A DNA stretch of 64,000 nucleotides from Syncephalis fuscata. Its lineage: Eukaryota; Zoopagomycota; Zoopagomycetes; Zoopagales; Piptocephalidaceae. Below the pieces are notes generated by a model. It made no database searches. It was given only the letters and a program-made list of their open reading frames with translations, and was not told where the DNA came from. How positions within the stretch are numbered: position 1 is the stretch's first letter; the number at the start of each line of letters is the position of its first letter. Positions 7,759-46,717 of the stretch are shown here, one piece after another. Made by a program: the position numbers and the translations under genes. Where the stretch lies: positions 124,001-188,000 of the forward strand of contig JAHLTZ010000008.1 of the NCBI GenBank assembly GCA_025786725.1. The letters are read 5' to 3'.

Positions 7759-8211
7759 AGTGAACTGTATTAAAGAAAATCTAGTACAAACAGCGCGATA
7801 AAAGAAACAGTGCTGAATAATAAATGGTAAAAAAAATAAAAATAAATCAAAATTGATTAAAATTAAAAAGTATATTTATCTAATTTTCCTATTTTTTTAA
7901 ATTCCTCATGAAAACCATGGGATACATCCCTTTTTGTTAGTGTTAGCATGTGGTAGTTATAATAAACCCATTTTGGTCACAAACTGCCTTAATAGTGCTA
8001 ATTAGCAGGCAAATAATAATCACATCTCTTTAGCCATTAATCACTATCAATCTGCATTTAATAACCAAGTGCTTACGCCAGTATTTAAGTCGCGCTTTTC
8101 GCTAACTGTTTGCCAATATTCAGTAGCTTTTTTCTTGTTATTTTGTTTTAGTTTAACGCTCACACTTTTAACGTCCATACCTCCAACATCCATTCTAACC
8201 TTAAGCTTATT

Positions 8212-8794
8212 ATGCATTTCAGTCTATTACCCACAATCATTATTCTCGGTCGTCTATTTGCAACAATTATTATTAATGTTAACTCAGTAGCTTCGTTGCC
8301 GACACAGAGCGGTCGAAGGGAAGTTTCGACAAGCTGCGAAAGGCTGCCATCATAAATGGCTCATCCCCCTTGGCATCAAACCCAGCAATTGATGATCTAA
8401 AACGTATCATGCCATCCGACAAATATTTCAAAAAAGACGGATTTTACGTATATCCTGAAGAGTGGTTTGGCTACAGTAATAAATGGGCTATTGCCCATGG
8501 ATACTACGCTGCTTCGGCTAGTGTTTATGGCCAACCTGGCTATGCCGAAGAAGTTGCTGTCTATATTACCTGTACGAATAGTCTGAAACTATACAATCTA
8601 CTGGCAACAGGTCGTAAGGTGTGCAAAATTACTGCTTTGTTTGTATTGTTTACTAACTGTTGACATTTTAGCTTATGCAGATGCACTGGCAAAAATACCC
8701 CATTGAGATACCAGGCACTGGTAGACATGGAATTGCAACACTTCAATCGTTTCAGCCTGAACCTCAATATGCGTGTAATGTTTTTCTATATTAA
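8212..8794 (+). CDS. Small secreted protein S1, copy 1 (new two-exon family)
   Basis: No family recognised. Exon 1 (8212-8618) encodes a hydrophobic signal peptide (MHFSLLPTIIILG) followed by a short basic linker and a core with YVYPEEWFGYSNKWAIAHGY and VAVYITC. The intron (8619-8671, GTGTGC...TTTAG) is phase 0. Exon 2 (8672-8794) has IEIPGTG and ends YACNVFLY. The Cys, the intron position 16 codons after it, the IPG motif and the final Cys are shared with S2, S3 and the locus at 46.0 kb. Compared with copy 2, a G run after GGTCGAA is one base shorter here (near 8,320), which breaks the frame between signal peptide and core. Error or decay cannot be told apart. Predicted to be extracellular. 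Confidence 0.65.
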
Positions 8795-10027
8795 AACATG
8801 ATAATGAGTAATATTAATAAAAGTTTTATGATAATAACACTTTAAGCTTATTTTATCTATAATTTATCAGCCATAACCTGTGGCAAACACTGAACCAGCA
8901 ATGATTCAATATTCATCACAGACTAATATGGCAAATTAAAATCTAGCATTAATACCAAATATTAATTTTATGGTTTGCTCTGCGGTAGCTTGCATTACAT
9001 CTTCAACAATTTTTGGTGTGTGCATCTGCAATAAATAGCAAGTTAAATTGAGTTAAAATGTGTTATATTCAAATTAAATACTGCAAGATTTCTATGACAT
9101 TTAACAACTAAATGTTCCATGACATTGATAGTGGCAAAAATTGGCAAGTTGTTACACCATATGTTGGTTTATGATCGATATAATGTAAAATATAGACACT
9201 ACACTGCTCATGAAAATCACAACATATGGCGAAAGTATTTCATTTTATGATAACAAAAACAGCAAGCACAGTGTAAGAAGAAAAGTACTTGTTGCGTTCT
9301 AACCTACAGTCAAGTATTCAATACATGTAGAAAAATACAACATATCTAAGAAATGAAAATGTAAATAAATTCAGTGGTAAAATAATGTATTGCAATGATA
9401 ATTAAATTTAAAACTACTAACTTAATTGTCAGCAGATGTAATGCATCATTTATGAAGCTGTACTGTTTTATAAATACTGGTAATCACCACGATCGATACA
9501 TTGTAACAAGGGGGTCGTAACTACTTCGCTTGTTACATATTGCAATATGACTATTCAGTTCATTATAGTTGAATCATGATAATTAATGGCCAATAGGAAA
9601 CAAAATTAGTATCAAAGCATTGTCAACCAACATATTGTGTTTTAACCGCTAGATAAGTACAAGTAAATATCAGAAATTAGCATTATAAGATAACGCTAAG
9701 ATAAGGTGCTGCTTGGCTAGCTGAGTTACAATTTGTTAAATAAAGCTGTAAAAATATAAATATTAGTGTGATTGTTTTTATAAACATTATGCCAATCGGC
9801 ATTATTGTAATACAAGTATGTAATAGAATTTCCTTGTTGCCATAAAAAGTAGATTGATACACGTGAAACAGCTAAAGAAAAATTATATCGTTCTGCTTAT
9901 GGATCGGAGTTTTATAATCTTGATGCCTTTGAATTGCTTTTTAAAATAAATAGATAGATTTTTCGGACTATTTTAGTTTTCAATATTAACCATCCATTAC
10001 ACTAGTAGATTTTACAAACAAACAGAC
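8795..10027. other. Intergenic, with diverged X-like relic
   Basis: AT-rich spacer between S1 and S2. Bases about 9,480-9,760 resemble the interior of repeat X (for example TTCAGTTCATTATAGTTGAA and a later CTTGGCTAGCTGAGTTACAA), with many changes, indicating an older insertion. A short minus-strand frame of 29 codons follows a possible TTGCAG acceptor near 9,029. It is too small to call a gene. Confidence 0.5.
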
Positions 10028-10652
10028 ATGCATTTTACTAGAACAGCTTTTGTATCAGCTTGCTATGGACTGGCAATCTACGCCAGCCTTATAGCTACTA
10101 GTTTGGCTTCTCCAGCTTCTCCACTTGAGAAATATATAATGAAAAAACAATTAGCCGAAAAACAATTAGCCGAAACACAATTCGCACCAATAGACAGCCC
10201 AGAATCATCGACAACCAAAGTATCACTTTTCGATGCCATCAGTGCAGCTTTACCACTTGGATTTAAGTTCTATTGGGGCAAGTACAAACTGAGCTTCCCA
10301 AAAGAATGGAAAAAAGACGCTAGTGGTGGCTGGGCATACACTTATGCAGTACTATCCTCCAAAGGTTCAAGGTTATATTACACCGGACAGAAAAGCGCCT
10401 ATGTGATTTGCACCGATAACACTGAGCTATTTTCAGACTTTAGCAAACAGCTTAATGTAAGTAAGCGCTGTGTAAATAGTATTATGTGCTGACTTTTACT
10501 AGGATGCATCAGAAAAGAAAGCATTGCGGACGTTGACTATTCCAGGATTAGCCGGTTTCATAACAGAGCAGCAGCCTTCCTTTAAGCCGACTAAACAAAT
10601 CAGCTGTTTGCCGGTGTATTATCAACATGCTTTGTCTAAGAATAAGCTGTAA
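10028..10652 (+). CDS. Small secreted protein S2, copy 1
   Basis: Second member of the new family. Exon 1 (10028-10456) starts with MHFTRTAFVSACYGLAIYAS, a clear signal peptide, then a KKQLAEKQLAETQ repeat and a core with FPKEWKKDASGGWAYTYAVL and SAYVICTD. The intron (10457-10502, GTAAGT...CTAG) is phase 0 and lies 16 codons from the Cys, as in S1 and S3. Exon 2 (10503-10652) reads TIPGLAGF, SFKPTKQISC, LPVYY and ends SKNKL. The frame is intact. Against copy 2 it differs by three replacement changes in exon 1 (Gly/Val in the signal peptide, Gly/Asp after FYW, Gly/Arg after YYT). Role unknown; extracellular location is predicted from the signal peptide. Confidence 0.75.
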
Positions 10653-10900
10653 CGCCGACAGGTTAATGGCAGCATACACATGCTTTGTTTCACTATTGTC
10701 TTTGCCATAATAGTGTGTCGCTTGAAATAGAAATATACATGCAAAGCTGTAACTCTGATTCATGTACATTTTTGGCTACTCCAAAAGAGATACTTTGAAG
10801 CAACGTTACACGATCACAATAAATTTCTTATTTAAATCAAGCCAAATTTGCATTAGATACCAATAAAAAACTCAGTAGACGATTCCTATCTACAACTAAA

Positions 10901-11632
10901 ATGCGCTATACATTTACGACTCTTGCTATTGTCAGTTACCTCGTTGCTTTTTCTAACGACGGATTATTGTCACCTGTCAGTGCTGAGCCAATTCCCGAAA
11001 GCAGAAGAAACCAATTAACTACGGCACAAGTATAGGCTAATACTTTAAAATTCCTACAATCTAAAAATGAGCATCCTATTGAGCCGGAAAAGTTTTTGAG
11101 CGCAATAGAAAGTGCTATACCATATAAGTTGCTTTATGAAGGCCAAGGATTTAAGTTGAAATTCACCACGCCTTGGACAATTAATCAATCAAAAACTTTG
11201 TGCGAGCATCTGCTTATTACAAAAACGCAAGTTCATCGCTGTTTCGTGTAGAAAAGAAAATAGAAGTTTATGTTCAATGTCCTAGGCTTTTCCAGGATTA
11301 TCAGGTAATAGTAAATAAACTAAAGGTAAGACGGTAGTTTTGATCGTTATAGTCTGATTAAACTGACTGTATTTTTGCAGAAACTAAAGGAACCAGAAGA
11401 TCCAAAGAAATTGAAAAATCCAAGGCAAAAAATAGCTCCACTAAAAATCCCAGGTACAGATGAAATTATGGTAGATAAATTGGCGACTTTTATGCCTATT
11501 AAGCAAGCTACTTGTATGGTGTTCACATTTAAAAAACCAAATTCTCCAGAAAGCAATTTGCCATCAAACACTGATCCATCCTCAAGTGATAAGAGTAAAA
11601 GCAAAAAACTCTGGCCATTGAAAAGACTATAG
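10901..11632 (+). pseudogene. Small secreted protein S3, copy 1 (interrupted)
   Basis: Third member of the family. A signal peptide (MRYTFTTLAIVSYLVAF) precedes a linker that contains an in-frame TAG near 11,032. A missing A near 11,189 breaks the core just before FVRASAYYKN. The core then reads KKIEVYVQCP. The phase-0 intron is 11326-11380, again 16 codons after the Cys. Exon 2 (11381-11632) has LKIPGTDEI, TFMPIKQATC and a Ser/Lys-rich tail absent from S1 and S2. Copy 2 has its own, different breaks in the linker. Either both S3 copies are decaying or the region is poorly assembled. The gene converges on the OPT gene 300 bases away. Confidence 0.6.
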
Positions 11633-11932
11633 TCTCTTAAAACTAACAATTTTTTAGAAATAAACAAATATATTTAAATGCATCATACAGTTGCTGTAAT
11701 TACCATTACCATATTCGGTAATTATAATTTATTTATATTAACATTATAATTCATCGTGCTTAAAGTCATTTGTATTACCATTTACTAAACAATTATAACC
11801 ACAACATATATATTAATTAATTTATTAATTTTGTATTAGTCCTTACAAGAAAGCCAGCAACTTATTGCAATAATAATTCGATTAAAGCATGTGTTTTTTG
11901 CTAGAAAAGTGTTTATAACACACTAAAAGTTT

Positions 11933-14105
11933 GGACAATCTCCTTCATTGCCCCACCATTCCAATTTAACTTCCTTGTACTGAAGGCAAAGAAGATAATG
12001 AAACCAGCAAGCGCAATACCAGAATCCATACCAGCTGATAGAATATAGTTGAATCGGCTCCACCAGGCGTTACGGTAGCGATAGACGACAAACTGAAAAA
12101 CGAAGGCTAAAAGGAACCAGCTGGTGTACATACCAGGTTGAGCAGGTGGCATGGCGGCAGTACTGCCGATGAACACCGGGATGTGAATGTATTTAAACCA
12201 TGAGTTGGGGTACCGACGGGACAGAAGCCAGAATGGCACTGGAAGCAAAAAGCCAATAAGGAAGCACCAGTTAAGAGCAGAGTAAAAGCCAGATGAACCA
12301 AGCATACGATTTGGACCGATGGCCCCCAAATTACCGAGTAGAGTAAATGCACGGCATTAGAGCAGTTCCAGACTGGCTCATCTGGCTGACAGATATTAGG
12401 AATTAGATTAAACATGAGATAAGCAGTGCTAAGATTGACAAGACCGGCGATGATTGTGCCGACACTTTGGGCAATAAACATGTGGCGTGGCGGAATCTTC
12501 ATGTAATGGCCGAGCTTCAAATCACCAAGGAAATAATACCTTGGTTCATGGCAATGTGACCGTATGCCTTGAAGGTAACATTGGCAATGGCACGACCAGG
12601 TAAAATAAAACCGATAACCATTCCCATAATAATGTTAAGACTAAGTGTTTGATTGTGACGGCTGTAATGATACCAGCAGGAATGATAAAAATGGCGGCGA
12701 GGGCAACAGCAAGAATGACACCCCACCATGGCAGATCGATACCAAATACTTCGCACACGACAATGGCTAATACAATATTGGCAACAAACATAAGGCCATA
12801 CCACCAGTCTGGCACTTCGTCGTAGCGGTCCATCAACTTGGCGTGAATATCGTCACTTTCGGAACGAGAGTTATTGAAATGGGCCATGATTTCCTTGCCA
12901 TGATACAGAATTGTGTGAGAGATAACGGCGGCTAGACTAGCAAAACCAAAACCATTTCTTACGGCAAACATAAGGGACATTTGTGGTGGACCGACCTCAG
13001 CATATTTTGCTTCGTCAAGCTGCAAGTTTTTGTCCACAAGCGAGGTGATTGGATAATCTTCAAAGTTAGAAGTAAACAGAGCGGAACTGAAAACGGGCAT
13101 GCTTTGAGCGTTCCAAACATTGTTGAAAAGTCCATAGGGAATGAGAACCCAGGTGACTATAACGAAGCCAGCAAATATGTTGGCAGCAACCCAGAATGGT
13201 ACAGCCAATGGAGACAAAAGGAAAGATGAAATGTAGTTCCAGTCAAATGATATCGCGAGTAGACCAAGACCACGAGTGCCCGAACCAAGCTGGTTGGCCA
13301 GTTTGTTATGTGGAGCAAAGTAGCACAAAAGGGAGATTGTGCTAAGGAGGTGGCCAAGTAACCGGGAAGAAAATAGTATAGAAAACTGCCCAAAGCAGCA
13401 AACCCGAAGAAACGAAGACGCGTCATTTGGCCAGGCGCAATGTCGTCAACATCGTGCAAAGTACGGAAAAGTGTGACGTTAACAAGCTGAGCAGGCCAGA
13501 TCATAGCACTTGGACGAATGAGGAAACGACGGCCATACCAGCCAAACCGTAACCGAGACATTGTGTTGTGACGACAAGCAAGAACGATGGGAAGAAGCCA
13601 AGATCTTGTTCATAGTAGATGCGCTTAATCGTGACGATATCAACGCATAGGCAGTAGCGGCAGCGGCATTGGCACATCCAGTAATCAATACGTGCTCCTT
13701 AACGTTGAAGGGGCCCGGATTAAGGTTGAATGAAAAGCGCCTGACCAACAATGCGATTGGCAAAGTGCGAGCCATAAAGACGCCGAGTGGATAAGAGAGC
13801 AGCTGAGCCACCAGGACCGACACCGTAAGTGGAGTTTCACGGAACCAGAAGAACTGGTTGATGAACGACAATACGACGGTGAAAAAATACCTAGGACCCA
13901 AAAGCGAACGTCATACTAGGTAAAGTTGGGTCATCTTTGTTACTGACAGTGGCCCGAACAATATCGAATGGTGAGTCTTTTTCCTCGAGGTCATTTGATG
14001 ACACAGTAGAGCTTTTCTCTAAATCGTCCTGCTGAACTTTTCTGCCGGATGCAACTCACGCATCACCGACACGCGGTTATACTCATTACTATTGAGCGGG
14101 CTCAT
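11933..14105 (-). CDS. OPT-family oligopeptide transporter, copy 1
   Basis: Proton-coupled uptake of tetra- and pentapeptides or related small molecules across the plasma membrane. No intron is needed. The protein starts [12 protein letters not shown], has an acidic N-terminal tail, and carries both OPT signatures: [10 protein letters not shown] after the first membrane helices and [11 protein letters not shown] in the second half. NQFFWFR and the typical C-terminal [12 protein letters not shown] just before the stop are also present. About 12 hydrophobic segments can be seen, and the reconstructed length of about 720 residues suits the family. At least seven one-base frame breaks occur relative to the conserved protein, at positions that mostly differ from those in copy 2. 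Family assignment is secure; whether this copy makes a full protein is not. Confidence 0.85.
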
Positions 14106-16012
14106 GTTGTCATAAAATAATAAGTAAAATGTTACTCAGCTAAAAAAAATTGAATTGAAAGGTCTTAAAATATGCTGTGGCTAATTAAAAAGCAGCTGCG
14201 GACTGGCTCATAAATACCATAAATAAGGTAGCAGTCAATAGATTCAATCGTAGCTGATTGTTTTAAGTGAAGCTTTTTGATAAAGCGCAAAAATAACGAG
14301 CAAAAGCAATAATATCCGTGTCGATAATTGATAATCAAATTCGTTAAAATAAAACGTAAATGCACAGCGTCGCTATGGTATCGTCAGTGACGGGAAACTG
14401 TGCGGCAGATAGATGTATAGAAGAAAGAAGGCAAATGAGATAGATGCTAAATTTGTGAATAGTTGCGACGAGACAAGCAAAATAGCGGATTTTTATAGTG
14501 TTCTTGTAGTTGGCGTAAAGGCAAAACAACTGGTTAACAATTGCCAATACGCTGCTTCACAAAGTTACTCACCTGCCCATACTATAGACATAACATTAAG
14601 TCAGCCACAGTGAACAACAGGTGACGAGTGAAACGCCGATTAGACAACATGAGAACACTTGTGGATAGTGAAATGTTGACGAAAGTTGGAGCAATGTTTG
14701 TGTAGTGTATGTTGGTTTTAGCTAAATGCCTAACACCGCTAAACTGGTCGTTAGTGCAGCGTTCAATGGTGTGACCGCGGCGTTTTTTTCGCCATCAATA
14801 AATAATATTACATCAATCTACTTTGCTGTATAACAAAAAATATGACGCAAATAGTCTTTAGAATCAAGCATTACGCGTGCTAATAATAAATTTTGAGTAA
14901 CATGTAACTGTGTGTCGTGTAAGCAGAATATTTCATTAATTGCAACAACAAAGCTTATCCCTCATTCTGGGTAATATAAATGAATAAAACTATTGTGTGC
15001 CATTTGTTTGGCACAAACAGAGGCCATATCGCCAATGAGCAACTTCGTTTGCAAAGATCATGTGAACAATATGTGGAGTCGCCCAATTGTGCACAGGTGT
15101 ACCTATCCTTGTTCAGCTTTTAGCGCTATTTTGAGGCCTTGTAACCGCTAATGTCCATATTAGGCTGCTTTACCAATAGCTATCAATAATACACAAATGG
15201 AATTCATCAAATTATTGGCTATTGTTTTACTACCTGATATGCCATTACTCCTATAACCGTTTTCAAACATTACTTTTATCCCACGGCGTTTGATATTTAC
15301 GCCAGCAATAGTTGTTTCTAGTTGAGGCCAAACTCGAAGTTTCACATCCACAAATAGCTGTATATACGGGTTCGCTAAACAGTAATGCATATTTAGCCTA
15401 AATTAGTAGTAGCACTATTTATTGATCAACAAACAAGGCATTTCTACACGTCAGGTCTTTACACTCAAGGTGTGCAGGTTAAAAATACCTTCATGCTTAG
15501 TAAAAAAATATTGATCTGTCTATAGCTATTAGATGCTGCCAAGTTTTGATAAACGATCAGATAGAGCGCAAAATTATAAATAAAAATCAGCATGCTGCGT
15601 TTTAATTATGGTAGATAGAGGAGGTGTTACTAGCCCAGTAGTTAAGGCAGCGTCTCCCAAGCTGAAGGCTTTGGGTTCTTTAGTTTGAATCAATCCTTAA
15701 GTGGAAATCCCCCAGTTTTTCTAGTTAAACAAGCTCAATTAAATTAAATAAGTGGGTCTAGAAACAAGACCTTGGCCAGAATAGCTGAAAAGAAACAATT
15801 GTAATTAACTTCAAGAGAATAGTGCTGTTTAGCACCATTTAAAAGAAATGACCTCCGCGTAAAGTTTATATGGACCGGATTTTGTGCAAAAACGTGGCTA
15901 TCCACCCATTAGTTTGGAGAAGTCCAAAATAGTGGAAAGCAGCACAAATTCTTTAATTATGCACAGCAGGACTCATAAGTTTTCTAAAATAAAATAAAAA
16001 TAAAGAGAAATT
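14106..16012. other. Right arm of cargo block 1, no secure gene
   Basis: About 1.9 kb upstream of the OPT gene. It holds a 47-codon plus-strand frame at 14,980-15,123, a 76-codon minus-strand frame at 15,160-15,390 (KLRVWPQLETTIAG region) that is mostly kept in copy 2, and a degenerate tRNA-like sequence. None is a recognised gene. The interval next to the OPT start is the likely promoter region of that gene. Confidence 0.5.
15623..15695 (+). pseudogene. Degenerate tRNA-like sequence (possible SINE remnant)
   Basis: Contains an A-box-like TAGCCCAGTAGTTAAGGC and, 35 bases on, GGTTC and GAATC, the two halves of a B box, separated by TTTAGTTT. The anticodon and T stems do not pair well, so this is not a working tRNA. 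It could be a tRNA relic or the head of a tRNA-derived SINE. It is duplicated with the block. Confidence 0.35.
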
Positions 16013-17170
16013 AAAAAATACGCCGTTATTAAATTTTAGGGGATTTTGAAAATACATTGTTTTAAATTTCATTATAATAAGGTCCTCTTTTCAAATTTTA
16101 TTTATTGAAATATATTGTTTTAAAAATCTACCAAATGTCTACCAAGCTATTTTAAAATGCCGTATTTAACAATATTGAAATACTGAAGCCTCTGTTGACA
16201 AGTTTAATTTGTTAGCAATTGAAATTTTAAGAGGAAAAAAGTGATTCAACAAGATTACAGCTCATTTGTCTTCATGAAGACCGTTCCAGCAACAAATATT
16301 GGTTTATTTCGGCTGCTAGAAAGCAGAAAACCAGCCTATTAAAGACTGCTAATGCAATCTTGAACGTTTTGACGACTATCCATACAATTCTGGTAATAAT
16401 AATATTATATTTATTACTAAATATATGCAAATAATGTTGCTACACTTTCAAATGTAAAATCAACATATATACAAGTAAAAACATCAAGATAAGCGCATGT
16501 TAATTATTAATATACACCAACAATTGCAATGATCAACAGATGCTATTGTTTGTTATTAGTATTAAATGACTTTGACTTATAGCAATAGTTTAAATCAACA
16601 GATTTATAACAAAAGTTGTAATTGATTGTTACGCTTCTTGTTTTAAAAATTGCAACTTGATGACCAAGCAACACATTATCCTGTCGCTATCCTATAACAT
16701 TAATTTCTGATGCTTATTAACGCTTACTTAACGCTCAGAATAAATGTGTTGTTTGGTTGTATTGCTTTTATAATAAGATTATTCCTTATTGGTCGTTAAT
16801 TACCACAGTTTAACTATAATAAACTGAATAACTTGTATGACACTAAGTAGAAATAATATTGGACTAGAAACTTATTATCCTTTATTATATTGAACAAAGC
16901 TATCATTATATAGTAAACACAACTAATAATAGAACTTGAATGCCTTGTGGTATTTCATCATTAGTGCAGCATATTAGTTCAGGTGGCTGCTCATATGCTC
17001 ACAACTAACAAGTAGCTACTCGTCATATTGTCGTAATAGACATTTGTTACTAGTAATCAGTACTAATATTTGATAGTTATATTATTTTTGTGATCAATCA
17101 CACGATATATCACTTAGTCACACTTTTACAAGACCTGTCCGGAATATCAGAACAGTAATAGTATGTTACA
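16010..17170 (+). mobile_element. Repeat X, copy X1 (truncated)
   Basis: Matches X3 (41,733-43,070) in inverted orientation and X2 in direct orientation. The left end carries the terminal motif CCTCTTTTCAAATTTT then ATTTATTGAAATATATTG. The body includes TTGTTACGCTTCTTG and ends at CCTGTCCGGAATATCAGAAC. It lacks the part of X3 that encodes the zinc-knuckle-like stretch, so it is truncated on the right. No transposase frame remains. Confidence 0.75.
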
Positions 17171-28895: not shown

Positions 28896-29747
28896 TACTT
28901 TATTAAATTATATTTTGAGTTGATGATCAAATAACTAACTTTAATAATATCCGCGCAATTGAACTAGAAATTCGTTTATTAAACTGAAAATTGGGTGGTG
29001 AGTAGCATTGGTCATCAATATGCATTATCATAGATTTAATATTTAGTATGCATGTATTTTCTAAGCATTTAAACCATTTCCATTGTATACTAATACTATT
29101 ATATATTATTTTATACTATACCGAATATATTTTTTTATTTCAGTCATTTAAACTATATGCTCTATAGACCTAACACTGCAATCCATACATTTTGCATGGT
29201 ACATTCATTCTACTGTATATCATTATATCACCTAACAACACTTTATCAATAAAAGCTGCTTAATTATTATCAACTGTATTATATATTTCAATCTCTCTCG
29301 CTTATTATGCTCATACAATCATATACAATATAGTTTGTTCACTTGATATGCATAGTCATTTTACAAGTATCCCACGATGGTTCCACACGACATCGATCAC
29401 GCATACAAATAGGTGTGTGTGTGTGCTGTCTTGTGTGTATGTGTTGAAGGTCTCAAGGTTGGTTTGGTTGAGCCGTCTATATTTTCTTTCTTTCTTCAAC
29501 AACTTTTTAAATCGTCGATTAGCCAGCCACTGCACTTGAATCACAAAGTGTACGCCTTATTGGAGTAGTTGTAGAAGTCGGCTCGTTTGAATTCAAACAC
29601 CAAGAATACTGTTTCTAGATTATTTGTTTGCTACTAGTGTCGTTTTATACATAAATCGCCGGATTATTCCAGTGCAGCTACCGCGTCTAGTCCTATAGCG
29701 TTGAATCCCGCCCATGTACCCAGTGCATTTCTCTTGTTTGTCCCCCG
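28896..29747. other. Intergenic, with GT microsatellite
   Basis: AT-rich DNA upstream of the acrB-like gene. A GTGTGTGTGTG tract lies near 29,413. The last 200 bases are the likely promoter and leader of the plus-strand gene. Confidence 0.5.
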
Positions 29748-32652: not shown

Positions 32653-32756
32653 TTATAAATATCAATATATAACAAAATTATATTATGTGCAGTTATTTAC
32701 TCTAATGAACAATATGTCTATAATATACTGATCTTTATTCGTTTTTATAATATTAT

Positions 32757-33520
32757 TCTATTGTTACGCTTCTTGTTTTAAAAATCGCAACTTGGATGAC
32801 CAAGCAACACATTATCCTGTCGCTATCCTATAACGTTAATTTCTAATGCTTATTAACGCTTACCTTAACGCTCAGAATACAATGTGTTGTTTGGTTGTAT
32901 TGCTTTTATAATAAGATTATTCCTTATTGTCGTTGATTACCACAGTTTAACTATAATAAACTGAATAACTTGTATGACACTAAGTAAAATAATATTGGAC
33001 TAGAAACTTGATTATTCTTTATTGATATTGAATAAAGCTATCATTATATAGTAAACACAACTAATAATAGAACTTGAATGCCTTGTGGTATTTCATCATC
33101 AGCGCAGCATATTAGTTTAGGGGCTGCTCATATGTTCACAACTAACAAGTAGCTACTCGTCATATTGTCGTAATAGACATTTGTTACTAGTGATCGGTAC
33201 TAATATCCGATAGGTATATTATTCTTGCAATCAATCACATGCGACTTTAACTGGTGATCCAATCACACGATATATCACTTAGTCACACTTTTACAAGACC
33301 CTGTCCGGAATATCAGAACAGTGATAATATAAATTTTGATAATAAGCTAAAATGAATTAAATTATAAAATTAATCTTTATTGAAAAACAAATACAAACTA
33401 CTAATGAAACAGCTATCAAGAAAAGAAAACGTGTTATTAAAGAATGTTTAATTTGTAGTAAACGCCATTACAAGAAAACGAAGTGTGGGGTAAATAAAAA
33501 ACAATATATTTAATAAATAA
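32757..33520 (+). mobile_element. Repeat X, copy X2 (left-truncated)
   Basis: Direct match to the right half of X1 and inverted match to X3. Begins at GTTACGCTTCTTG, right after the acrB-like gene, so its left terminus is missing. Its right end has a reading frame (about 33,370-33,503) with C-x2-C-x3-H-x5-C (CLICSKRHYKKTKCG) preceded by KKRKR, then the terminal motif ATTTGAAAAGAGGGATTTAG. It borders the second cargo block. Confidence 0.75.
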
Positions 33521-33883
33521 AATTTGAAAAGAGGGATTTAGTATAATGAAATTTAAAAACGGTGTATTTATTTTATAAAAAACAGGAAAATAAATAAATT
33601 TAAAAGTGTATTTTCCAAATTTTTCCTATAATAAAGCCATTTTGGTCACAAACTGCCTTAATAAGTGCTAACTTAGCAGGCAAATAATAATCACATCTCT
33701 TTAGCCATTAATCATCTATCAATCTGCATTTAATAACCAAGTGCTTACGCCAGTATTTAAGTCGCGCTTTTCGCTAACTGTTTGCCAATATTCAGTAGCT
33801 TTTTTCTTGTTATTTTGTTTTAGTTTAACGCTCACACTTTTAACGTCCATACCTCCAACATCCATTCTAACCTTAAGCTTATT

Positions 33884-34468
33884 ATGCATTTCAGTCTATT
33901 ACCCACAATCATTATTCTCGGTCGTCTATTTGCAACAATTATTATTAATGTTAACTCAGTAGCTTCGTTGCCGACACAGAGCGGTCGAAGGGGAAGTTTC
34001 GACAAGCTGCGAAAGGCTGCCATCATAAATGGCTCATCCCCCTTGGCATCAAACCCAGCAATTGATGATCTAAAACGTATCATGCCATCCGACAAATATT
34101 TCAAAAAAGACGGATTTTACGTATATCCTGAAGAGTGGTTTGGCTACAGTAATAAATGGGCTATTGCCCATGGATACTACGCTGCTTCGGCTAGTGTTTA
34201 TGGCCAACCTGGCTATGCCGAAGAAGTTGCTGTCTATATTACCTGTACGAATAGTCTGAAACTATACAATCTACTGGCAACAGGTCGTAAGGTGTGCAAA
34301 ATTACTGCTTTGTTTGTATTTGTTTACTAACTGTTGACATTTTAGCTTATGCAGATGCACTGGCAAAAATACCCCATTGAGATACCAGGCACTGGTAGAC
34401 ATGGAATTGCAACACTTCAATCGTTTCAGCCTGAACCTCAATATGCGTGTAATGTTTTTCTATATTAA
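33884..34468 (+). CDS. Small secreted protein S1, copy 2 (intact)
   Basis: The intact version of S1. Exon 1 (33884-34291): signal peptide MHFSLLPTIIILGRLFATII, basic linker (GRRGSFDKLRK), core FYVYPEEWFGYSNKWAIAHG and EEVAVYITCTNSLKLYN. Intron 34292-34345, phase 0, GTGTGC...TTTAG. Exon 2 (34346-34468): PIEIPGTGRHG, FQPEPQYACNVFLY, stop. The mature protein has only two cysteines, one per exon, at positions shared with S2, S3 and the 46-kb locus, so a single disulfide is likely. About 176 residues in all. Function unknown; effector-like by size and secretion only. Confidence 0.75.
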
Positions 34469-35703
34469 AACATGATAATGAGTAATATTAATAAAAGTTT
34501 TATGATAATAACACTTTAAGCTTATCTTTATCTATAATTTATCAGCCATAACCTGTGGCAAACACTGAACCAGCAATGATTCAATATTCATCACAGACTA
34601 ATATGGCAAATTAAAATCTAGCATTAATACCAAATATTAATTTTATGGTTTGCTCTGCGGTAGCTTGCATTACATCTTCAACAATTTTTGGTGTGTGCAT
34701 CTGCAATAAATAGCAAGTTAAATTGAGTTAAAATGTGTTATATTCAAATTAAATACTGCAAGATTTCTATGACATTTAACAACTAAATGTTCCATGACAT
34801 TGATAGTGGCAAAAATTGGCAAGTTGTTACACCATATGTTGGTTTATGATCGATATAATGTAAAATATAGACACTACACTGCTCATGAAAATCATAACAT
34901 ATGGCGAAAGTATTTCATTTTATGATAACAAAAACAGCAAGCACAGTGTAAGAAGAAAAGTACTCGTTGTGTTCTAACCTACAGTCAAGTATTCAATACA
35001 TGTAGAAAAATACAACATATATAAGAATGAAAATGTAAATAAATTCAGTGGCAAAATAATGTATTGCAATGATAATTAAATTTAAAACTACTAACTTAAT
35101 TGTCAGCAGATGTAATGCATCATTTATGAAGCTGTACTGTTTTATAAATACTGGTAATCACCACGATCGATATATTGTAACAAGGGGGTCGTAACTACTC
35201 CGCTTGTTACATATTGCAATATGAACTATTCAGTTCATTATAGTTGAATCATGATAATTAATGGCCAATAGGAAACAAAATTAGTATCAAAGCATTGTCA
35301 ACCAACATATTGTGTTTTAACCGCTAGATAAGTACAAGTAAATATCAGAAATTAGCATTATAAGATAACGCTAAGATAAGGTGCTGCTTGGCTAGCTGAG
35401 TTACAATTTGTTAAATAAAGCTGTAAAAATATAAATATTAGTGTGATTGTTTTGTAAAACATTATGCCAATCGGCATTATTGTAATACAGGTATGTAATA
35501 GAATTTCCTTGTTGCCATAAAAAGTAGATTGATACACGTGAAACAGCTAAAGAAAAATTATATCGTTCTGCTTATGATATCGGAGTTTTATAATCTTGAT
35601 GCCTTTGAATTGCTTTTTAAAATAAATAGATAGATTTTTCGGACTATTTTAGTTTTCAATATTAACCATCCATTACACTAGTAGATTTTACAAACAAACA
35701 GAC
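34469..35703. other. Intergenic, with diverged X-like relic
   Basis: Same content as 8,795-10,027; the X-like stretch lies at about 35,150-35,440. No gene seen. Confidence 0.5.
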
Positions 35704-36328
35704 ATGCATTTTACTAGAACAGCTTTTGTATCAGCTTGCTATGTACTGGCAATCTACGCCAGCCTTATAGCTACTAGTTTGGCTTCTCCAGCTTCTCCAC
35801 TTGAGAAATATATAATGAAAAAACAATTAGCCGAAAAACAATTAGCCGAAACACAATTCGCACCAATAGACAGCCCAGAATCATCGACAACCAAAGTATC
35901 ACTTTTCGATGCCATCAGTGCAGCTTTACCACTTGGATTTAAGTTCTATTGGGACAAGTACAAACTGAGCTTTCCAAAAGAATGGAAAAAAGACGCTAGT
36001 GGTGGCTGGGCATACACCTATGCAGTACTATCCTCCAAAGGTTCAAGGTTATATTACACCAGACAGAAAAGCGCCTATGTGATCTGCACCGATAACACTG
36101 AGCTATTTTCAGACTTTAGCAAACAGCTCAATGTAAGTAAGCGCTGTGTAAATAGTATTATGTGCTGACTTTTACTAGGATGCATCAGAAAAGAAAGCAT
36201 TGCGGACGTTGACTATTCCAGGATTAGCCGGTTTCATAACAGAGCAGCAGCCTTCCTTTAAGCCGACTAAACAAATCAGCTGTTTGCCGGTGTATTATCA
36301 ACATGCTTTGTCTAAGAATAAGCTGTAA
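35704..36328 (+). CDS. Small secreted protein S2, copy 2
   Basis: Intact frame. Exon 1 35704-36132, intron 36133-36178 (GTAAGT...CTAG, phase 0), exon 2 36179-36328. Signal peptide MHFTRTAFVSACYVLAIYAS; core FPKEWKKDASGGWAYTYAVL, SAYVICTDN; exon 2 LTIPGLAG, KPTKQISCLPVYY. In exon 1 the two copies show three amino-acid replacements and about four silent changes, which suggests both stayed under coding use after duplication but with room to vary. Predicted secreted; partner unknown. Confidence 0.77.
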
Positions 36329-36576
36329 CGCCGACAGGTTAATGGCAGCATACACATGCTTTGTTTCACTATTATCTTTGCCATAATAGTGTGTCGCTTG
36401 AAATAGAAATATACATGCAAAGCTGTAACTCTGATTCATGTACATTTTTGGCTACTCCAAAAGAGATACTTTGAAGCAACGTTACACGATCACAATAAAT
36501 TTCTTATTTAAATCAAGCCAAATTTGCATTAGATACCAATAAAAAACTCAGTAGACGATTCCTATCCACAACTGAA

Positions 36577-37307
36577 ATGCGCTATACATTTACGATTCTT
36601 GCTATTGTCAGTTGCCTCGTTGCTTTTTCTAACGACGGATTATTGTCACCTGTCAGTGTGAGCCAATTCCCGAAAGCAGAAGAAACCAATTAACTACGGC
36701 AAATTACAGGCTAATACTTTAAAATTCCTACAATCTAAAAATGAGCATCCTATTGAGCCGGAAAAGTTTTTGAGCGCAATAGAAAGTGCTATACCATATA
36801 AGCTGCTTTATGAAGGCCAAGGATTTAAGTTGAAATTCACCACGCCTTGGACAATTAATCAATCAAAAAACTTTGTGCGAGCATCTGCTTATTACAAAAA
36901 CGCAAGTCCATCGCTGTTTCGTGTAGAAAAGAAAATAGAAGTTTATGTTCAATGTCCTAGGCTTTTCCAGGATTATCAGGTAATAGTAAATAAACTAAAG
37001 GTAAGACGGTAGTTTTGATCGTTATAGTCTGATTAAACTGACTGTATTTTTGCAGAAACTAAAGGAACCAGAAGATCCAAAGAAATTGAAAAATCCAAGG
37101 CAAAAAATAGCTCCACTAAAAATCCCAGGTACAGATGAAATTATGGTAGATAAATTGGCAACTTTTATGCCTATTAAGCAAGCCACTTGTATGGTGTTCA
37201 CATTTAAAAAATCAAATTCTCCAGAAAGCAATTTGCCATCAAACACTGATCCATCCTCAAGTGATAAGAGTAAAAGCAAAAAACTCTGGCCATTGAAAAG
37301 ACTATAG
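36577..37307 (+). pseudogene. Small secreted protein S3, copy 2 (interrupted)
   Basis: Signal peptide MRYTFTILAIVSCLVAF, then a one-base loss after GTCAGTG (copy 1 has GTCAGTGCTGAG) that shifts the linker into a stop. The core resumes with FLSAIESAIPYKLLYEGQG, TPWTINQSKNFVRASAYYKN and EVYVQCP, intact here unlike copy 1. Intron 37001-37055; exon 2 has the IPGT motif, the ATC cysteine and the Ser/Lys tail. Its breaks differ from those in copy 1, so an undamaged ancestor existed at or before duplication. Confidence 0.6.
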
Positions 37308-37610
37308 TCCTCTTAAAACTAACAATTTTTTAGAAATAAACAAATATATTTAAATGCATTATACAGCTGCTGTAATTACCATTACCATATTCGGTAATTA
37401 TAATTTATTTATATTAACATTATAATTCATCGTGCTTAAAGTCATTTGTATTACCATTTACTAAACAATTATAACCACAACATATATATTAATTAATTTA
37501 TTAATTTTGTATTAGTCCTTACAAGAAAGCCAGCAACTTATTGCAATAATAATTCGATTAAAGCATAATTGTTTTTTGCTAAAAAAGCGTTTATAACACA
37601 CTAGAAGTTT

Positions 37611-39776
37611 GGACAATCTCCTTCATTGCCCCACCATTCCAATTTAACTTCCTTGTACTGGAAGGCAAAGAAGATAATAAAACCAGCGAGCACAATACCA
37701 GAATCATACCAGCCGATAGAACATAGTTGAATCGACTCCACCAGACGTTACGGTAGCGATAGACGACAAACTGGAAGACGAAGGCTAAAAGGAACCAGCT
37801 GGTGTACATACCAGGTTGAGCAAGTGGCATGATGGCAGTACCGCTGGTGAACACCGGGATGTGAATGTATTTGAACCATGAGTTGGGGTAGCGACGGGAC
37901 AGAAGCCAGAATGGCACTGGAAGCAAAAAGCCAATAAGGAAGCACCAGTTAAGAGCAGAGTAAAAGCCAGATGAACCAAGCATACGATTTGGCCGATGGT
38001 GCCCCAAATGACCGAGCAAGAGTATATGATACGGGCATTAGAACAGTTCCAGACTGGCTCATCTGGCTGACAATATTAGGAATTAGATGGAACATGAGAT
38101 AAGCAGTGCCAAGATTGACAAGACCGGCGATGATTGTGCCGACACTTTGAGCAATGAACATGTGGCGTGGCGGAATCTTCATGTAATGGCCGAGCTTCAA
38201 ATTGCTAAGAAATGCAATACCTTGGTACATGGCAATGTGGCCGTATGCCTTGAAGGTAACATTGGCAATGGCACGACCAGGTAGAATAAAACCGATAATC
38301 AGCTCCGTAATAATGTCAATACCAGGTGTTTGATTGGTGACGGCTGTAATAATACCAGCAGGAATGATGAAAATGGCGGCGAGGGCAACAGCAAGAATGA
38401 CACCCCACCATGGCAGATCGATACCAAATACTTCGCACACGACAATGGCTAATACAATATTGGCAACAAACATAAGGCCATACCACCAGTCTGGCACTTC
38501 GTCGTAGCGGTCCATCAACTTGGCGTGAATATCGTCACTTTCGGAACGAGAGTCGCGGAAACGGCCATGATTTCCTTGCCATGATACAGAATTGTGTGTG
38601 AAATAACGGCGGCTAGACTAGCAAAACCAACACCATATGCTACAACAAACAAAAGGACATTTGTGGTGGCCGACCTCGGCTATTTTGCTTCGTCAAGCTG
38701 CAAGTTTTTGTCACAAGCGAGTGATTGGATAATCTTCAATGTAGAAGTAAACAGAGCGGAACTGAAAACGGGCATGCTTTGAGCGTTCCAAACATTGTTG
38801 AAAAATCCATAGGAAATTAAACCAGGTGAATAAATGAAGCCAGCAAATATGTTGGCAGCAACCCAGAATGGTACAGCCAATGGAGACAAAAGAAAGATGA
38901 AATGTAGTTCCAGTCAAATGATATCGCGAGTAGACCAAGACCACGAGTGCCCGAACCAAGCTGGTTGGCCAGTTTGTTATGTGGAGCAAAGTAGCACAAA
39001 AGGGAGATTGTGCTAAGGGAGGTGGCCAAGTAACCGGGAAGAAAATAGTATAGAAAACTACCCAAAGCAGCAAACCCGAAGAAACGAAGACGCGTCATTT
39101 GGCCAGGCCAACGTCATCGACATCGTGCAAGTACGGAAAAGTGTGACGTTAACAAGCTGGCAGGCCAGATCATAGCACTTGGACGAATGAGGAAACGACG
39201 GGCCATACCAGCCAAACCGTAACCGAGACATTGTGTTGTGACGACAAGCAAGAACGATGGAAGAAGCCAAGATCTTGTCCATAGTAGATGCGCTTAATCG
39301 TGACGATATCAACCGCATAGCGTAGCGGCAGCGGCATTGGCACATCCAGTAATCAATACGTGCTCCTTAACGTTGAAGGGGCCCGGATTAAGGTTGAATG
39401 AGAAGCAACCTAACCAACAATGCGATTGGGCAAAGTGCGAGCCATAAAGACACCGAGTGGATAAGAGAGCAGCTGAGCCACCAGGACCGACGCCGTAAGT
39501 GGAGTTTCACGGAACCAGAAGAACTGGTTAATGAACGACAATACGACGGTAAAAAAATACCTAGGACCCAAAAGCGGAACGTCATACTAGGCAAAGTCGG
39601 GTCATCTTTGTTACTGACAGTGGCCCGAACAATATCGAATGGTGAGTCTTTTTCCTCGAGGTCATTTGATGACACAGTAGAGCTTTTCTCCAAATCGTCC
39701 TGCTGAAACTTTTCTGCCGGATGCAACTCACGCATCACCGACACGCGGTTATACTCGTTACTATTGAGCGGCTCAT
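37611..39776 (-). CDS. OPT-family oligopeptide transporter, copy 2
   Basis: Same protein as copy 1: acidic N-terminal tail ([12 protein letters not shown]), TFRFWVLG, then [28 protein letters not shown], and a C-terminus read cleanly as [15 protein letters not shown] and CPNF before TAG. A CC where copy 1 has CCC shifts the frame right after the start, and further one-base losses occur near 39,405, 39,110, 38,720, 38,560, 38,065 and 37,715. Several stretches broken in copy 1 are intact here and the reverse, so the ancestral gene was whole. Likely plasma-membrane peptide uptake if expressed. Confidence 0.8.
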
Positions 39777-41280
39777 GTTGTCATAAAATAATAGAGTAAA
39801 ATGTTACTCAGCTAAAAAAAATTGAATTGAAAGGTCTTAAAATATGTTGGCTATTAAAAAGCAGCTGCGGACTGGCTCATAAATACCATAAATAAGGTAG
39901 CAGTCAATAGATTCAATCGTAGCTGATTGTTTAAGTGAAGCTTTTTGATAAAGCGCAAAAATAACGAGCAAAAGCAATAATATCGTGTCATAATTGATAA
40001 CAAATTCGTTAAAATAAAACGTAAGTGCACAGCGTCGCTATTGGTATCGTCAGTGACGGGAAAACTGTGCGGCAGATAGATGTATAGAAGAAAGAAGGCA
40101 AATGAGATAGATGCTAATTTGTGAATAGTTGCGACGAGACAAGCAAAATAGCGGGTTTTATAGTGTTCTTGTAGTTGGCGTAAAGGAACAGCTAGTTAAC
40201 AATTGCCAATACGCTGCTTCACAAAGTTACTCACCTGCCCATACTATAGACATAACATTAAGTCAGCCACAGTAACAAAGGTGACGAGTGAAACGCTGAT
40301 TAGACAACATGAGAACACTTGTGGATAGTGAAATGTTGACGAAAGTTGAGCAATGTTGTGTAGTGTATGTTGGTTTTAGCTAAATGCCTAACACCGCTAA
40401 ACTGGTCGTTAGTGCAGCGTTCAATGGTGTGACCGCGGCGTTTTTTTCGCCATCAATAAATAATATTACATCAATCTACTTTGCTGTATAACAAAAAATA
40501 TGACGCAAATAGTCTTTAGAATCAACATTACGCGTGCTAATAATAAATTTTGAGTAACATGTAACTGTGTGTCGTGTAAGCAGAATATTTCATTAATTGC
40601 AACAACAAAGCTTATCCCTCATTCTGGGTAATATAAATGAATAAAACTATTTGTGCCATTTGTTTGGCACAAACAGAGGCCATATCGCCAATGAGCAACT
40701 TCGTTTGCAAGAGATCATGTGAACAATATGTGGGGTCGCCCAATTGTGCACAGGTGTACCTATCCTTGTTCAGCTTTTAGCGCTATTTTGAGGCCTTGTA
40801 ACCGCTAATGTCCATATTAGGCTGCTTTACCAATAGCTATCAATAATACACAAATGGAATTCATCAAATTATTGGCTATTGTTTTACTACCTGATATGCC
40901 ATTACTCCTATAACCGTTTTCAAACATTATTTTTATCCCACGGCGTTTGATATTTACGCCAGCAATAGTTGTTTCTAGTTGAGGCCAAACTCGAAGCTTC
41001 ACATCTACAAATAGCTGTATATAACGGGTTCGCTAAACAGTAATGCATATTTAGCCTAAATTAGTAGTAGCACTATTTATTGATCAACAAACAAGGCATT
41101 TCTACACGTCAGGTCTTTACACTCAAGGTGTGCAGGTTAAAAATACCTTCATGCTTAGTAAAAAAATATTGATCTGTCTATAGCTATTAGATGCTGCCAA
41201 GTTTTGATAAACGATCAGATAGAGCGCAAAATTATAAATAAAAATCAACATGCTGCGTTTTAATTATGGTAGATAGAGGA
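39777..41280. other. Right arm of cargo block 2, no secure gene
   Basis: Counterpart of the right arm of block 1. Contains a 47-codon plus-strand frame (40,637-40,780) with several cysteines and the minus-strand KLRVWPQLETTIAG frame (40,817-41,002), shortened by an inserted base. Confidence 0.45.
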
Positions 41281-41354
41281 GGTGTTACTAGCCCAGTAGT
41301 TAAGGCAGCGTCTCCCAAGCTGAAGGCTTTGGGTTCTTTAGTTTGAATCAATCC
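41281..41354 (+). pseudogene. Degenerate tRNA-like sequence, copy 2
   Basis: Same A-box-like and split B-box-like sequence as at 15,623-15,695, without change in those boxes. Confidence 0.35.
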
Positions 41355-41732
41355 TTAAGTGGAAATCCCCAGTTTTTCTAGTTAAACAAGCTCAATTAAA
41401 TTAAATAAGTGGGTCTAGAAACAAGACCTTGGCCAGAATAGCTGAAAAGAAACAATTGGAATTAACTTCAAAAGAATAGTGCTGTGTAGCATCATTTAAA
41501 AGAAAATGACCTCCGCGTAAAGTTTATATGGACCGGATTTTGTGCAAAAACGTGGCTGTCCACCCATTAGTTTAGAGAAGTCCAAAATAGTAGGAAACAG
41601 CACAAATTCTTTATTATGCACAGCAGGACTCATAAGTTTTCTAAAATAAAATAAAAATAAAGAGAAATTAGTATAATGAAATTTAAATAGGGATTTTAAA
41701 ATAATTTAATAACGGCGTATTTTTCCTAATTT

Positions 41733-43070
41733 CTCTTTCAAATTTTATTTATTAAATATATTGTTTTTTATTTACCCCACACTTCGTTTTCTTGTAATGG
41801 CGTTTACTACAAATTAAACATTCTTTAATAACACGTTTTCTTTTCTTGATAGCTGTTTCATTAGTAGTTTGTATTTGTTTTTCAATAAAGATTAATTTTA
41901 TAATTTAATTCATTTTAGCTTATTATCAAAATTTATATTATCACTGTTCTGATATTCCGGACAGGGTCTTGTAAAAGTGTGACTAAGTGATATATCGTGT
42001 GATTGGATCACCAGTTAAAGTCGCATTGATTGATTGCAAGAATAATATACCTATCGATATTAGTACCGATCACTAGTAACAAATGTCTATTACGACAATA
42101 TGACGAGTAGCTACTTGTTAGTTGTGAACATATGAGCAGTCCCCTAAACTAATATGCTGCGCTGATGATGAAATACCACAAGGCATTCAAGTTCTATTAT
42201 TAGTTGTGTTTACTATATAATGATAGCTTTATTCAATATCAATAAAGAAATAATCAAGTTTCTAGTCCAATATTATTTTACTTAGTGTCATACAAGTTAT
42301 TCAGTTTATTATAGTTAAACTGTGGTAATTAACGACCAATAAGGAATAATCTTATTATAAAAGCAATACAACCAAACAACACATTGTATTCTGAGCGTTA
42401 AGGTAGGCGTTAATAAGCATCAGAAATTAATGTTATAGGATAGCGACAGGATAATGTGTTGCTTGGTCATCCAAGTTGCGATTTTTAAAACAAGAAGCGT
42501 AACAATACAATTACAACTTTTGTTATAAATCTGTTGATTTAAACTACTGCTATAAGTCAAAGTCATTTAATACTAATAACAAACAATAGCATCTGTTGAT
42601 CATTGCAATTGTTAGTGTATATTAACTAATTACACATGCGCTTATCTTGATGTTTTTACTTGTATATATGTTGATTTTACATTTGAAAGTGTAGCAACAT
42701 TATTTGCAGTATATTTAGTAATAAATATAATATTATTATTACCAGAATTGTATGGATAGTCGTCAAAACGTTCAAGATTGCATTGGGCAGTCTTTAATAG
42801 GCTGGTTTTCTGCTTTCTAGCAGCCGAAATAAACCAATATTTGTTGCTGAAACGGTCTTCATGAAGACAAATGAGCTGTAATCTTGTTGAATCACTATTT
42901 TTCCTCTTAAAATTTCAATTGCTAACAAGTTAAACTTGTCAGCAGAGGCTTCAGTATTTCAATATTGTTAAATATGGCATTTTAAAATAGCTTGGTAGAC
43001 ATTTGGTAGATTTTTTAAAACAATATATTTCAATAAATAAATTTGAAAAGAGGATTTATTATAATGAAAT
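41733..43070 (-). mobile_element. Repeat X, copy X3 (fullest copy, ~1.3 kb with terminal inverted repeats)
   Basis: The left end reads CTCTTTCAAATTTTATTTAT then TAAATATATTG, and the right end reads, on the other strand, CCTCTTTTCAAATTTATTTA then TTGAAATATATTG, so the ends are inverted repeats of 30 bases or more. It contains all parts seen separately in X1 and X2. On the minus strand at the left is the Cys/His zinc-knuckle-like frame. The interior holds further hairpin-forming pairs such as AACAACACATTG and ATAATGTGTTGC. No full transposase frame is present, so it is probably a non-autonomous or decayed DNA element. Confidence 0.75.
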
Positions 43071-43319
43071 TAAAAAACTGTATTTTCAAATTCCTTTAAA
43101 TTATTAATGTTTAATTGTGTCATAAATCTTGGACAATATAATGACTACCAATTAAATTTAAATGATGCTGTATCCAAATACCAAAACATACAATACAATA
43201 TTAAATTGCAATGTGATGATTATTAAAAAACATATTGTTTTATATATACTAACTGAACGCCAATGGCCAAATTACAGCGTGAATGGTAGTGAAACAAGTC
43301 GATATCTATAATAAATACA

Positions 43320-45440: not shown

Positions 45441-46043
45441 TAGCTAATAGTTTACATTATTTATTTATTATAAGCCAATTATAATTCCAATAGTTTACCA
45501 AAATTATTTATATTAAATAATGCATAAAAGTCAAAGTTTTAACAAATAAAACTAGAACATTAGTAAACATGGCAGTTGATGAATCAAACGAGTAAGGTGC
45601 ATGTTACATTCAAATACCAAACTTGCAACATGATATGTAATTGTAGTGTGATGATTGCAAAAAACACGCTATACTCTTACGTACAAATACAATTGCAATG
45701 AATATCCTACAGAGTTCAAACGTGAAACAGGCATTTGTCTTTTTTACCTTAAAACTAGCTATAACTCTTTTTGAAGATTAAAACCTCTACATCGTTTTTT
45801 TTAGAAATTGCATGTGTATTTCTTACAAAAAAATACATGATTAATATATATATGGAAATCCTACACGTGTATTTAAAATGGACGGCTCACTAAATTTATG
45901 TTGTATGCCTATAAAGGAAAACAATGAAAAAACAACTGTAAATTAATCGATAAGGCGGTGTTTAGAATTTGGTATATATACAATCGTCTCAATTGACTAT
46001 TTTGATATCTTCTTATTCATCAATTCCTTGTTTGCTAACAACT
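45441..46043. other. Intergenic upstream of the 46-kb secreted-family gene
   Basis: AT-rich. A stretch at about 45,620-45,690 (AAATACCAAACTTGCAAC, then GTGATGATTGCAAAAAACA) loosely resembles 43,175-43,245, so these may be old duplicates. Likely promoter of the next gene. Confidence 0.4.
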
Positions 46044-46717
46044 ATGTATCAGCGCTACACTATATCAATCGTCATTGCTAGCTGTCTAATGCTACTATTA
46101 TGCAGCTTCAACTCCATGCAAAGTAACGCCACGCCAACACCTGGATTGGTACAAAGTCGATTAACCAACCTGTATGAGATGATTGCCACATTTCCTGGAT
46201 CATCTCTACCTAGCGCCAAAACGTCACATAAATTGTATGGATATACAACAATAGCAGGTCTGGCTCAAATCATCATGCCTGCTGATTCTCCATACGATTG
46301 GGACTTTTATAGATTGCGATACACTGGTACATGGAAAAATACGTGGAAAAGACATGGGCAATCAATCATGCTATGGTATCAATAGAGCTTGATAAAGATT
46401 TTTATACTGAAGCAGAAGAGCCGGTTTGGGTTATATGTACAACCTCAATGGGCGTATTTAAAATTTTATGAACGATATCAAAGTAAGTGGCATGCCAATC
46501 AATGATGATTAATAGCTAAACTATTCTATGTTTAGAGCGGCATGTTTGAGGCAAAGAAAGAAAGAAAAGATCAATACTAAACTCTATCACAATACCAGGA
46601 ACCGCAGCACAAATTAAAGATAAGGGATTTTACTTTATGCCTAACGATCAGCTTGCATGCTTAGTGTACACATACATCAACTCTTCTAATAGAAAAAGAA
46701 AAAGATTATCTTTCTAA
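46044..46717 (+). pseudogene. Small secreted protein S4, divergent and interrupted family member
   Basis: Signal peptide MYQRYTISIVIASCLMLLLC, then a core with AQIIMPADSPYDWDFYRLRY and, after a one-base shift near 46,345, TWAINHAMVSIELDKDFYTE and PVWVICTTSMGVFKI. A GTAAGT donor follows 15-16 codons after the Cys, as in S1-S3, and the acceptor is TTTAG near 46,533. Exon 2 reads ITIPGTAAQIKDKGFYFMPN then DQLACLVYTY, with one more shift before ITIPG, ending KRKRLSF. Sequence identity to S1-S3 is low but every family landmark is kept in order. Not part of either cargo block. Breaks may be real. Confidence 0.6.

Follow-up and report, generated by a model that had tools for sequence, protein, structure and literature searches.

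A lineage-specific family of putatively secreted, non-catalytic proteins in Syncephalis fuscata with a predicted kinase N-lobe core

What are the clustered two-exon genes that lie at 33884..37307 of a 64-kb stretch of Syncephalis fuscata DNA (the window, C278:124001-188000), and what might their small products do? A sequence-only reading had described three of them, S1, S2 and S3, together with S4 at 46 kb, as a new, effector-like family of small secreted proteins sharing common descent and belonging to no described family. We searched the window, the 28.95-Mb assembly to which it belongs (299 contigs), and protein and structure databases. Our preferred answer, to which we assign a probability of roughly 45%, is a family specific to the lineage, whose secreted proteins lack catalysis and have the N-terminal lobe (N-lobe) of a protein kinase as core, derived from a DYRK-type gene and put to effector-like use. 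S1, S2 and S3 were confirmed in place, and with S4 they are arranged as follows.

33884..34291, plus strand: S1 exon 1, with signal-like start, W-rich centre and VYITC; 98% in tblastn; deposited relative P0005 (176 residues)
34292..34345, plus strand: S1 intron, phase 0, 45 bases past the Cys codon; junction identical in P0005
34346..34468, plus strand: S1 exon 2, with IPG, FQPEPQYACNVFLY and the stop
35704..36132, plus strand: S2 exon 1; S2 matches the deposited BDF19DRAFT_412037 of Syncephalis fuscata (P0001) at 98% identity across its full length of 192 residues
36133..36178, plus strand: S2 intron, phase 0; junction identical in P0001
36179..36328, plus strand: S2 exon 2
36577..37000, plus strand: S3 exon 1, its frame interrupted close to the start in the assembly; deposited as P0002
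37001..37055, plus strand: S3 intron, phase 0
37056..37307, plus strand: S3 exon 2
46044..46717, plus strand: S4, present once, with neither exon in an unbroken frame; intron probably at 46483-46535

The unity of the family was examined by a leave-one-type-out test, in which a profile of the other types was searched against 5916 open frames, and for which a fifth type, detected on contig C245 (tblastn, E 1.3e-5), was available. In its best copy every held-out exon 1 was recovered (S2 E 3e-9, S1 4e-5, S3 2e-5, C245 8e-8, S4 4e-5), the remaining copies of S3 more weakly (E 0.008-0.03), and exon 2 was recovered for four of the five types (S2 E 1e-4, S1 4e-3, S3 6e-5, S4 3e-9), that of C245 not being found at E<=2. 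The types have in common the W-rich centre, a [VA]-[YW]-[VI]-x-C motif, IPG (VPD in C245), and an F and a C near the end. Judged by sequence, S1-S4 belong to one family, their mutual recovery lying beyond chance, and the claim of common descent is borne out. A weak profile match at L039 3141-3690 was judged, after reading, to be chance.

The intron adds a positional character to this. In S1, S2 and S3 the same 45 bases, or 15 codons, separate the Cys codon from the phase-0 intron; the shared phase and position had been described correctly, with a distance of 16 codons that holds only when the Cys itself is counted. The C245 member has a phase-0 intron likewise 15 codons past its central Cys. 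S4 seems to have the common intron too, because 44 bases (46439-46482) lie between its Cys codon and GTAAGT, one short of 45, in a gene whose frame is shifted as well. For S1, S2 and C245 the splice junctions agree with the deposited models P0005, P0001 and P0007 (178 residues).

These deposited models also qualify the word ‘new’: the proteins of S1, S2 and C245 already have database entries for S. fuscata, as hypothetical proteins without a name, although no family was found for them in the databases searched. Deposited P0003, P0004 and P0006, which are copies of S3 and S1, omit coding stretches, apparently evading broken frames, and there was no deposited S4 protein among the six matches of a profile search at E<=10. 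None of seven pieces had a Pfam match at E<=10, the kinase profile PF00069 included, none of three was matched in NCBIfam, and P0007 had no Pfam match at E<=0.01. Three protein searches (80, 1938 and 2 candidates scored) gave S. fuscata only; because they require shared five-residue words, they may overlook remote relatives, such as any in other Syncephalis. On the evidence of these searches the family occurs in no organism but S. fuscata among those covered, and the statement that it belongs to no described family stands for sequence. For fold it may not stand, since both protein models that were built resemble a known one, as described below. A sequence search of the PDB gave one match, a V-ATPase chain at E 0.47, which was regarded as chance.

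All five types have a hydrophobic N-terminal start by hydropathy, a criterion used here in place of a dedicated predictor, and the signal peptide proposed for the family is to that extent supported. The deposited full models are 176-218 residues long, and 15-residue hydropathy stays at or below 1.6 after the start, so that no transmembrane helix is indicated past it. By the same hydropathy the products would count as small secreted proteins, with signal-led export predicted.

The sequence-only reading had proposed that predicted folds be compared, and the models of S1 and S2 agree on a fold resembling a kinase N-lobe: in each of two structure searches, kinase N-lobes make up 50 of the 50 matches listed. 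In the viral library BFVD no match reached E<=0.001, and the six matches with a probability of at least 0.57 among the 50 listed are all kinases (five protein kinases and one phosphoinositide 3-kinase). As predicted, the core has N-lobe topology and would run helix, beta1, beta2, beta3 (VYxxC), alpha-C, then the phase-0 intron, beta4 (IPG) and beta5 (FxPxxQxxCxVFxY). The intron falls after residue 143 in S2 and after residue 136 in S1, in each case twelve residues into the predicted helix. Having one intron and two Cys, the genes had also suggested a ribonuclease (RNase) of the type seen in RALPH effectors; that idea was set aside, as no RNase is named among the structure matches listed, an absence from the lists that does not exclude an RNase fold.

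What makes a kinase catalytic is lacking. The Gly-rich loop GxGxxG is missing between the first strands of all five types on reading, and none of the five residues leading up to the first Cys is a Lys in S1, S2, S3, S4 or C245 (the VAIK register being uncertain by one residue); three residues before that Cys sits a Y or W. The proteins stop 5 to 38 residues beyond the beta5 Cys, and so the C-terminal lobe (C-lobe), with HRD and DFG, is lacking as well. For these reasons the family is not a kinase and should not phosphorylate.

Descent from kinases is a separate matter, and it was approached through the register of the two Cys residues. The ends of the matched ranges map Cys178 of S2 and Cys171 of S1 onto Cys235 of DYRK1A if the last strand is ungapped, with DYRK1A numbered from what we take to be K188. 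A Cys at this beta5 position (as in HLCLVFE) is found in DYRK1A, CLK2, PRP4 and three kinase genes of the genome, whereas PKA, CDK2 and CDPKs have Tyr. In single-sequence alignments to two mixed kinase profiles, the second Cys of S3, C245 and S4 falls on the beta5 Cys, and shuffled versions of these three gave the same register in 12 of 360 cases. The scores themselves are mostly ordinary: of 60 shuffles, those reaching them numbered 0 and 2 for S3, 13 and 8 for C245, and 24 and 14 for S4.

A second line comes from the introns of kinase genes in the same genome. In two genes that we call DYRK-like, a label based on motifs (one is C53/C101, near identical on the two contigs, the other C234:848k), the alpha-C segment runs up to a predicted phase-0 intron, which lies 18 and 22 codons past the residue three after the VAIK Lys, compared with 15 after the Cys at that place in S1-S3, if the register is right. 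The two stretches of the first of these genes, C53:20000-20400 and C101:237340-237740, may be a recent duplicate or an unmerged haplotype.

Several results weigh against a kinase origin. Of S3, C245 and S4, S3 alone stays in the beta5 register when the profile holds CMGC kinases only, and none of them stays in it when the profile is made of four other kinases; S1 and S2, aligned singly, fail to adopt it with the mixed profiles also. A profile-profile comparison with ten kinases scored 19.6, above every one of 150 shuffles (maximum 16.9), yet the reversed family reached 18.8, so the result is not significant; six CMGC kinases gave 14.2, under the 95% shuffle level of 15.0, and four other kinases gave 10.7. 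An earlier score of 24.9 (maximum of 60 shuffles 16.9) did not hold in the larger run. Among the kinase genes, a LAMMER/CLK-like one has its intron elsewhere, slightly later and in another phase, and at least four kinase loci match uninterrupted across the intron place. On the structural side, Foldseek E-values are 0.04 or worse, the top Foldseek match of one search is a phage protein, and VIA re-ranks the Foldseek list, adding no independent search. The models were built on 7-8 rows of few types, with modest confidence for S1, and kinases are very common in the PDB.

Much of this would be expected if S1-S4 were a real orphan secreted family with one disulfide, whose antiparallel sheet and helix resemble a kinase lobe only generically, having been reached independently. 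Profiles without significance against kinases, Foldseek values no better than 0.04, the missing Gly loop and Lys, and protein searches confined to S. fuscata are all consistent with such an origin, which we regard as a real possibility though not one that we would expect to prove correct. The agreement of both models, the beta5 Cys and the intron at the end of alpha-C are the features that point instead to the DYRK-type derivation preferred here.

The genes are also repeated. S1, S2 and S3 share with a gene for an OPT oligopeptide transporter an 8.2-kb unit that is present in four copies on C278, 95-97% identical, so that the two copies of each gene noted earlier are right for the window and half of what the contig carries. 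The further features concerned are these.

7958..16121: 8.2-kb unit, copy 1
8212..8794, plus strand: S1 of copy 1, exon 1 frame broken
10028..10652, plus strand: S2 of copy 1
10901..11632, plus strand: S3 of copy 1, exon 1 frame broken
33627..41767: 8.2-kb unit, copy 2, 97% identical to 7958-16121 and 95% to C278:70328-78508
37594..39780, minus strand: OPT transporter gene of the unit, frame broken; Pfam PF03169 at E 6e-55 on 37952-38617
32755..33529, plus strand: flanking dispersed repeat, with an inverted partner at 41736-42511

The stretch 32755-41277 is likewise 95% identical to C278:79016-87546. Searched for in the genome, the flanking repeat gave 49 matches (299 candidates, 40 scored), of about 570 bp in most.

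Many of the copies are broken, which raises the question of whether the family is in decay, that is, a set of relics spread by repeats and without present function. S1 is broken in two of four copies, a stop interrupts S3 exon 1 shortly past its signal-like start, S4 shifts frame in both exons, C245 is broken, the 80-kb copy of S2 breaks just past its start codon, and a dispersed repeat flanks the unit. Set against this, S2 is open from the start in three of four copies and S1 in two, and the codons of S2 and S3 are under constraint, with small numbers: the ratio of non-synonymous to synonymous change (pN/pS) between copies is 0.21-0.37 for S2 and 0.17-0.39 for the tested part of S3, over the five of six pairs that differ, and rests on 0-14 changes per pair. 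S1 is mixed (0.05, 0.41, 0.53, 2.35 and 2.95, with one pair lacking synonymous change), and its two pairs above 2 count against the reading preferred here. At least some of the breakage is probably due to assembly indels, because units compared in pairs are separated by 27-81 indel events and the frame of a neighbouring conserved gene is likewise disrupted, with decay as the alternative; as an account of the whole family, decay seems to us improbable. The transporter gene behaves similarly, with uninterrupted frames of 741 and 718 residues in the copies at 70 kb and 80 kb, and broken ones in both window copies (37594-39780 and 11916-13910).

This transporter invites another explanation, in which the proteins serve the parasite itself, as spore or cell-wall proteins or as extracellular partners of the OPT transporter. 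The joint unit in four copies fits this, as do S2 and S3 codons that are conserved rather than diversifying. Linkage through duplication, however, requires no shared function; the 3.2-kb C245 locus gave no OPT match in the three other frames scanned and is adjoined by a RING-finger gene, and on the far side of S4, as seen in short flanks, lies a sugar transporter. We consider a structural or nutritional role of this kind unlikely.

Elsewhere in the window, a gene on the minus strand at 4100-6641 has tRNA_bind_2 and GNAT_acetyltr_2 spread over overlapping frames, the acetyltransferase match beginning at profile position 105, a pattern that points to assembly indels; caspase-domain (Peptidase_C14) matches at 52485-52868 and 57205-57576, also on the minus strand, cover front and back of that profile; and an inverted pair of 2.1 kb (26762-28897 and 43303-45442) is 98.8% identical.

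How, then, would half a kinase have become a secreted family? The kinase-derived history that we favour would most likely start with one of the fungus's own CMGC kinase genes, of DYRK type. This gene would have retained the N-lobe and its intron, acquired a signal sequence and shed both C-lobe and catalytic residues. A disulfide between the first Cys and what had been the beta5 Cys would have come to fix neighbouring strands, and duplication would have spread the family to five types, with one unit in four copies. As nothing remains to catalyse, the proteins should act by binding, on a target outside the cell or in the host. Syncephalis species are obligate mycoparasites (PMC6784888), and in such a fungus the most likely use would be as effector-like proteins binding the host surface or a host kinase partner. 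If the family is kinase-derived, the lobe is used as a scaffold; this would show how a signalling enzyme turns into an effector scaffold and offer a way into the feeding of one fungus on another. The predicted kinase N-lobe, lacking its C-lobe, adds to the interest of the family first recognised from the sequence.

Comparison with known systems begins with the CMGC kinases (DYRK/CLK/PRP4/HIPK type), which the family resembles in predicted strand order and alpha-C, in best structural matches, in the beta5 Cys and, for two DYRK-like genes of this genome, in a phase-0 intron at the end of alpha-C; it differs in being signal-led, in lacking C-lobe, Gly loop and catalytic Lys, and in showing no significant sequence similarity. 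The rhoptry kinases of Toxoplasma and CRN8 of Phytophthora, which we take to be complete bilobal domains, contrast with the single lobe here. These secreted kinases and pseudokinases of parasites (PMC3682881; PMC3426532) have a kinase fold working outside the producing cell, as is predicted for the family. The Mig1 family of Ustilago maydis (PMC12503489) is similarly clustered, sequence-divergent, secreted and held together by Cys and fold, a likeness of description. No published kinase N-lobe or kinase-fold effector family was found for fungi in the literature consulted, partly in excerpt, which excludes preprints and holds few subscription papers; within the same limits nothing was found on effectors of Zoopagomycota mycoparasites, which seem hardly described.

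The closest parallel, by analogy in design and not by descent, would be the RALPH effectors of powdery mildews, which are described in PMC7857584 as RNase-like, small, secreted proteins of low identity, with a single characteristic intron and a predicted pairing of two Cys. The likeness extends to divergence within the family and, by prediction in the present case, to secretion and to the fold of an enzyme that no longer catalyses, the producer being a parasitic fungus in both. Each gene here also has one intron and each protein two Cys, at positions relative to the fold unlike those which that source describes for RALPH, and the RNase fold, plant hosts and other phylum of RALPH contrast with the kinase-like fold predicted here. 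Tentatively, and with more reserve than for the family as a whole, we suggest that these genes may represent the first secreted, disulfide-fixed half-kinase family, in which a DYRK-type kinase was cut to its N-lobe, intron included, lost catalysis and became a multicopy, fast-diverging binding effector directed at other fungi, and so the equivalent, among kinases, of the RNase-derived RALPH effectors.
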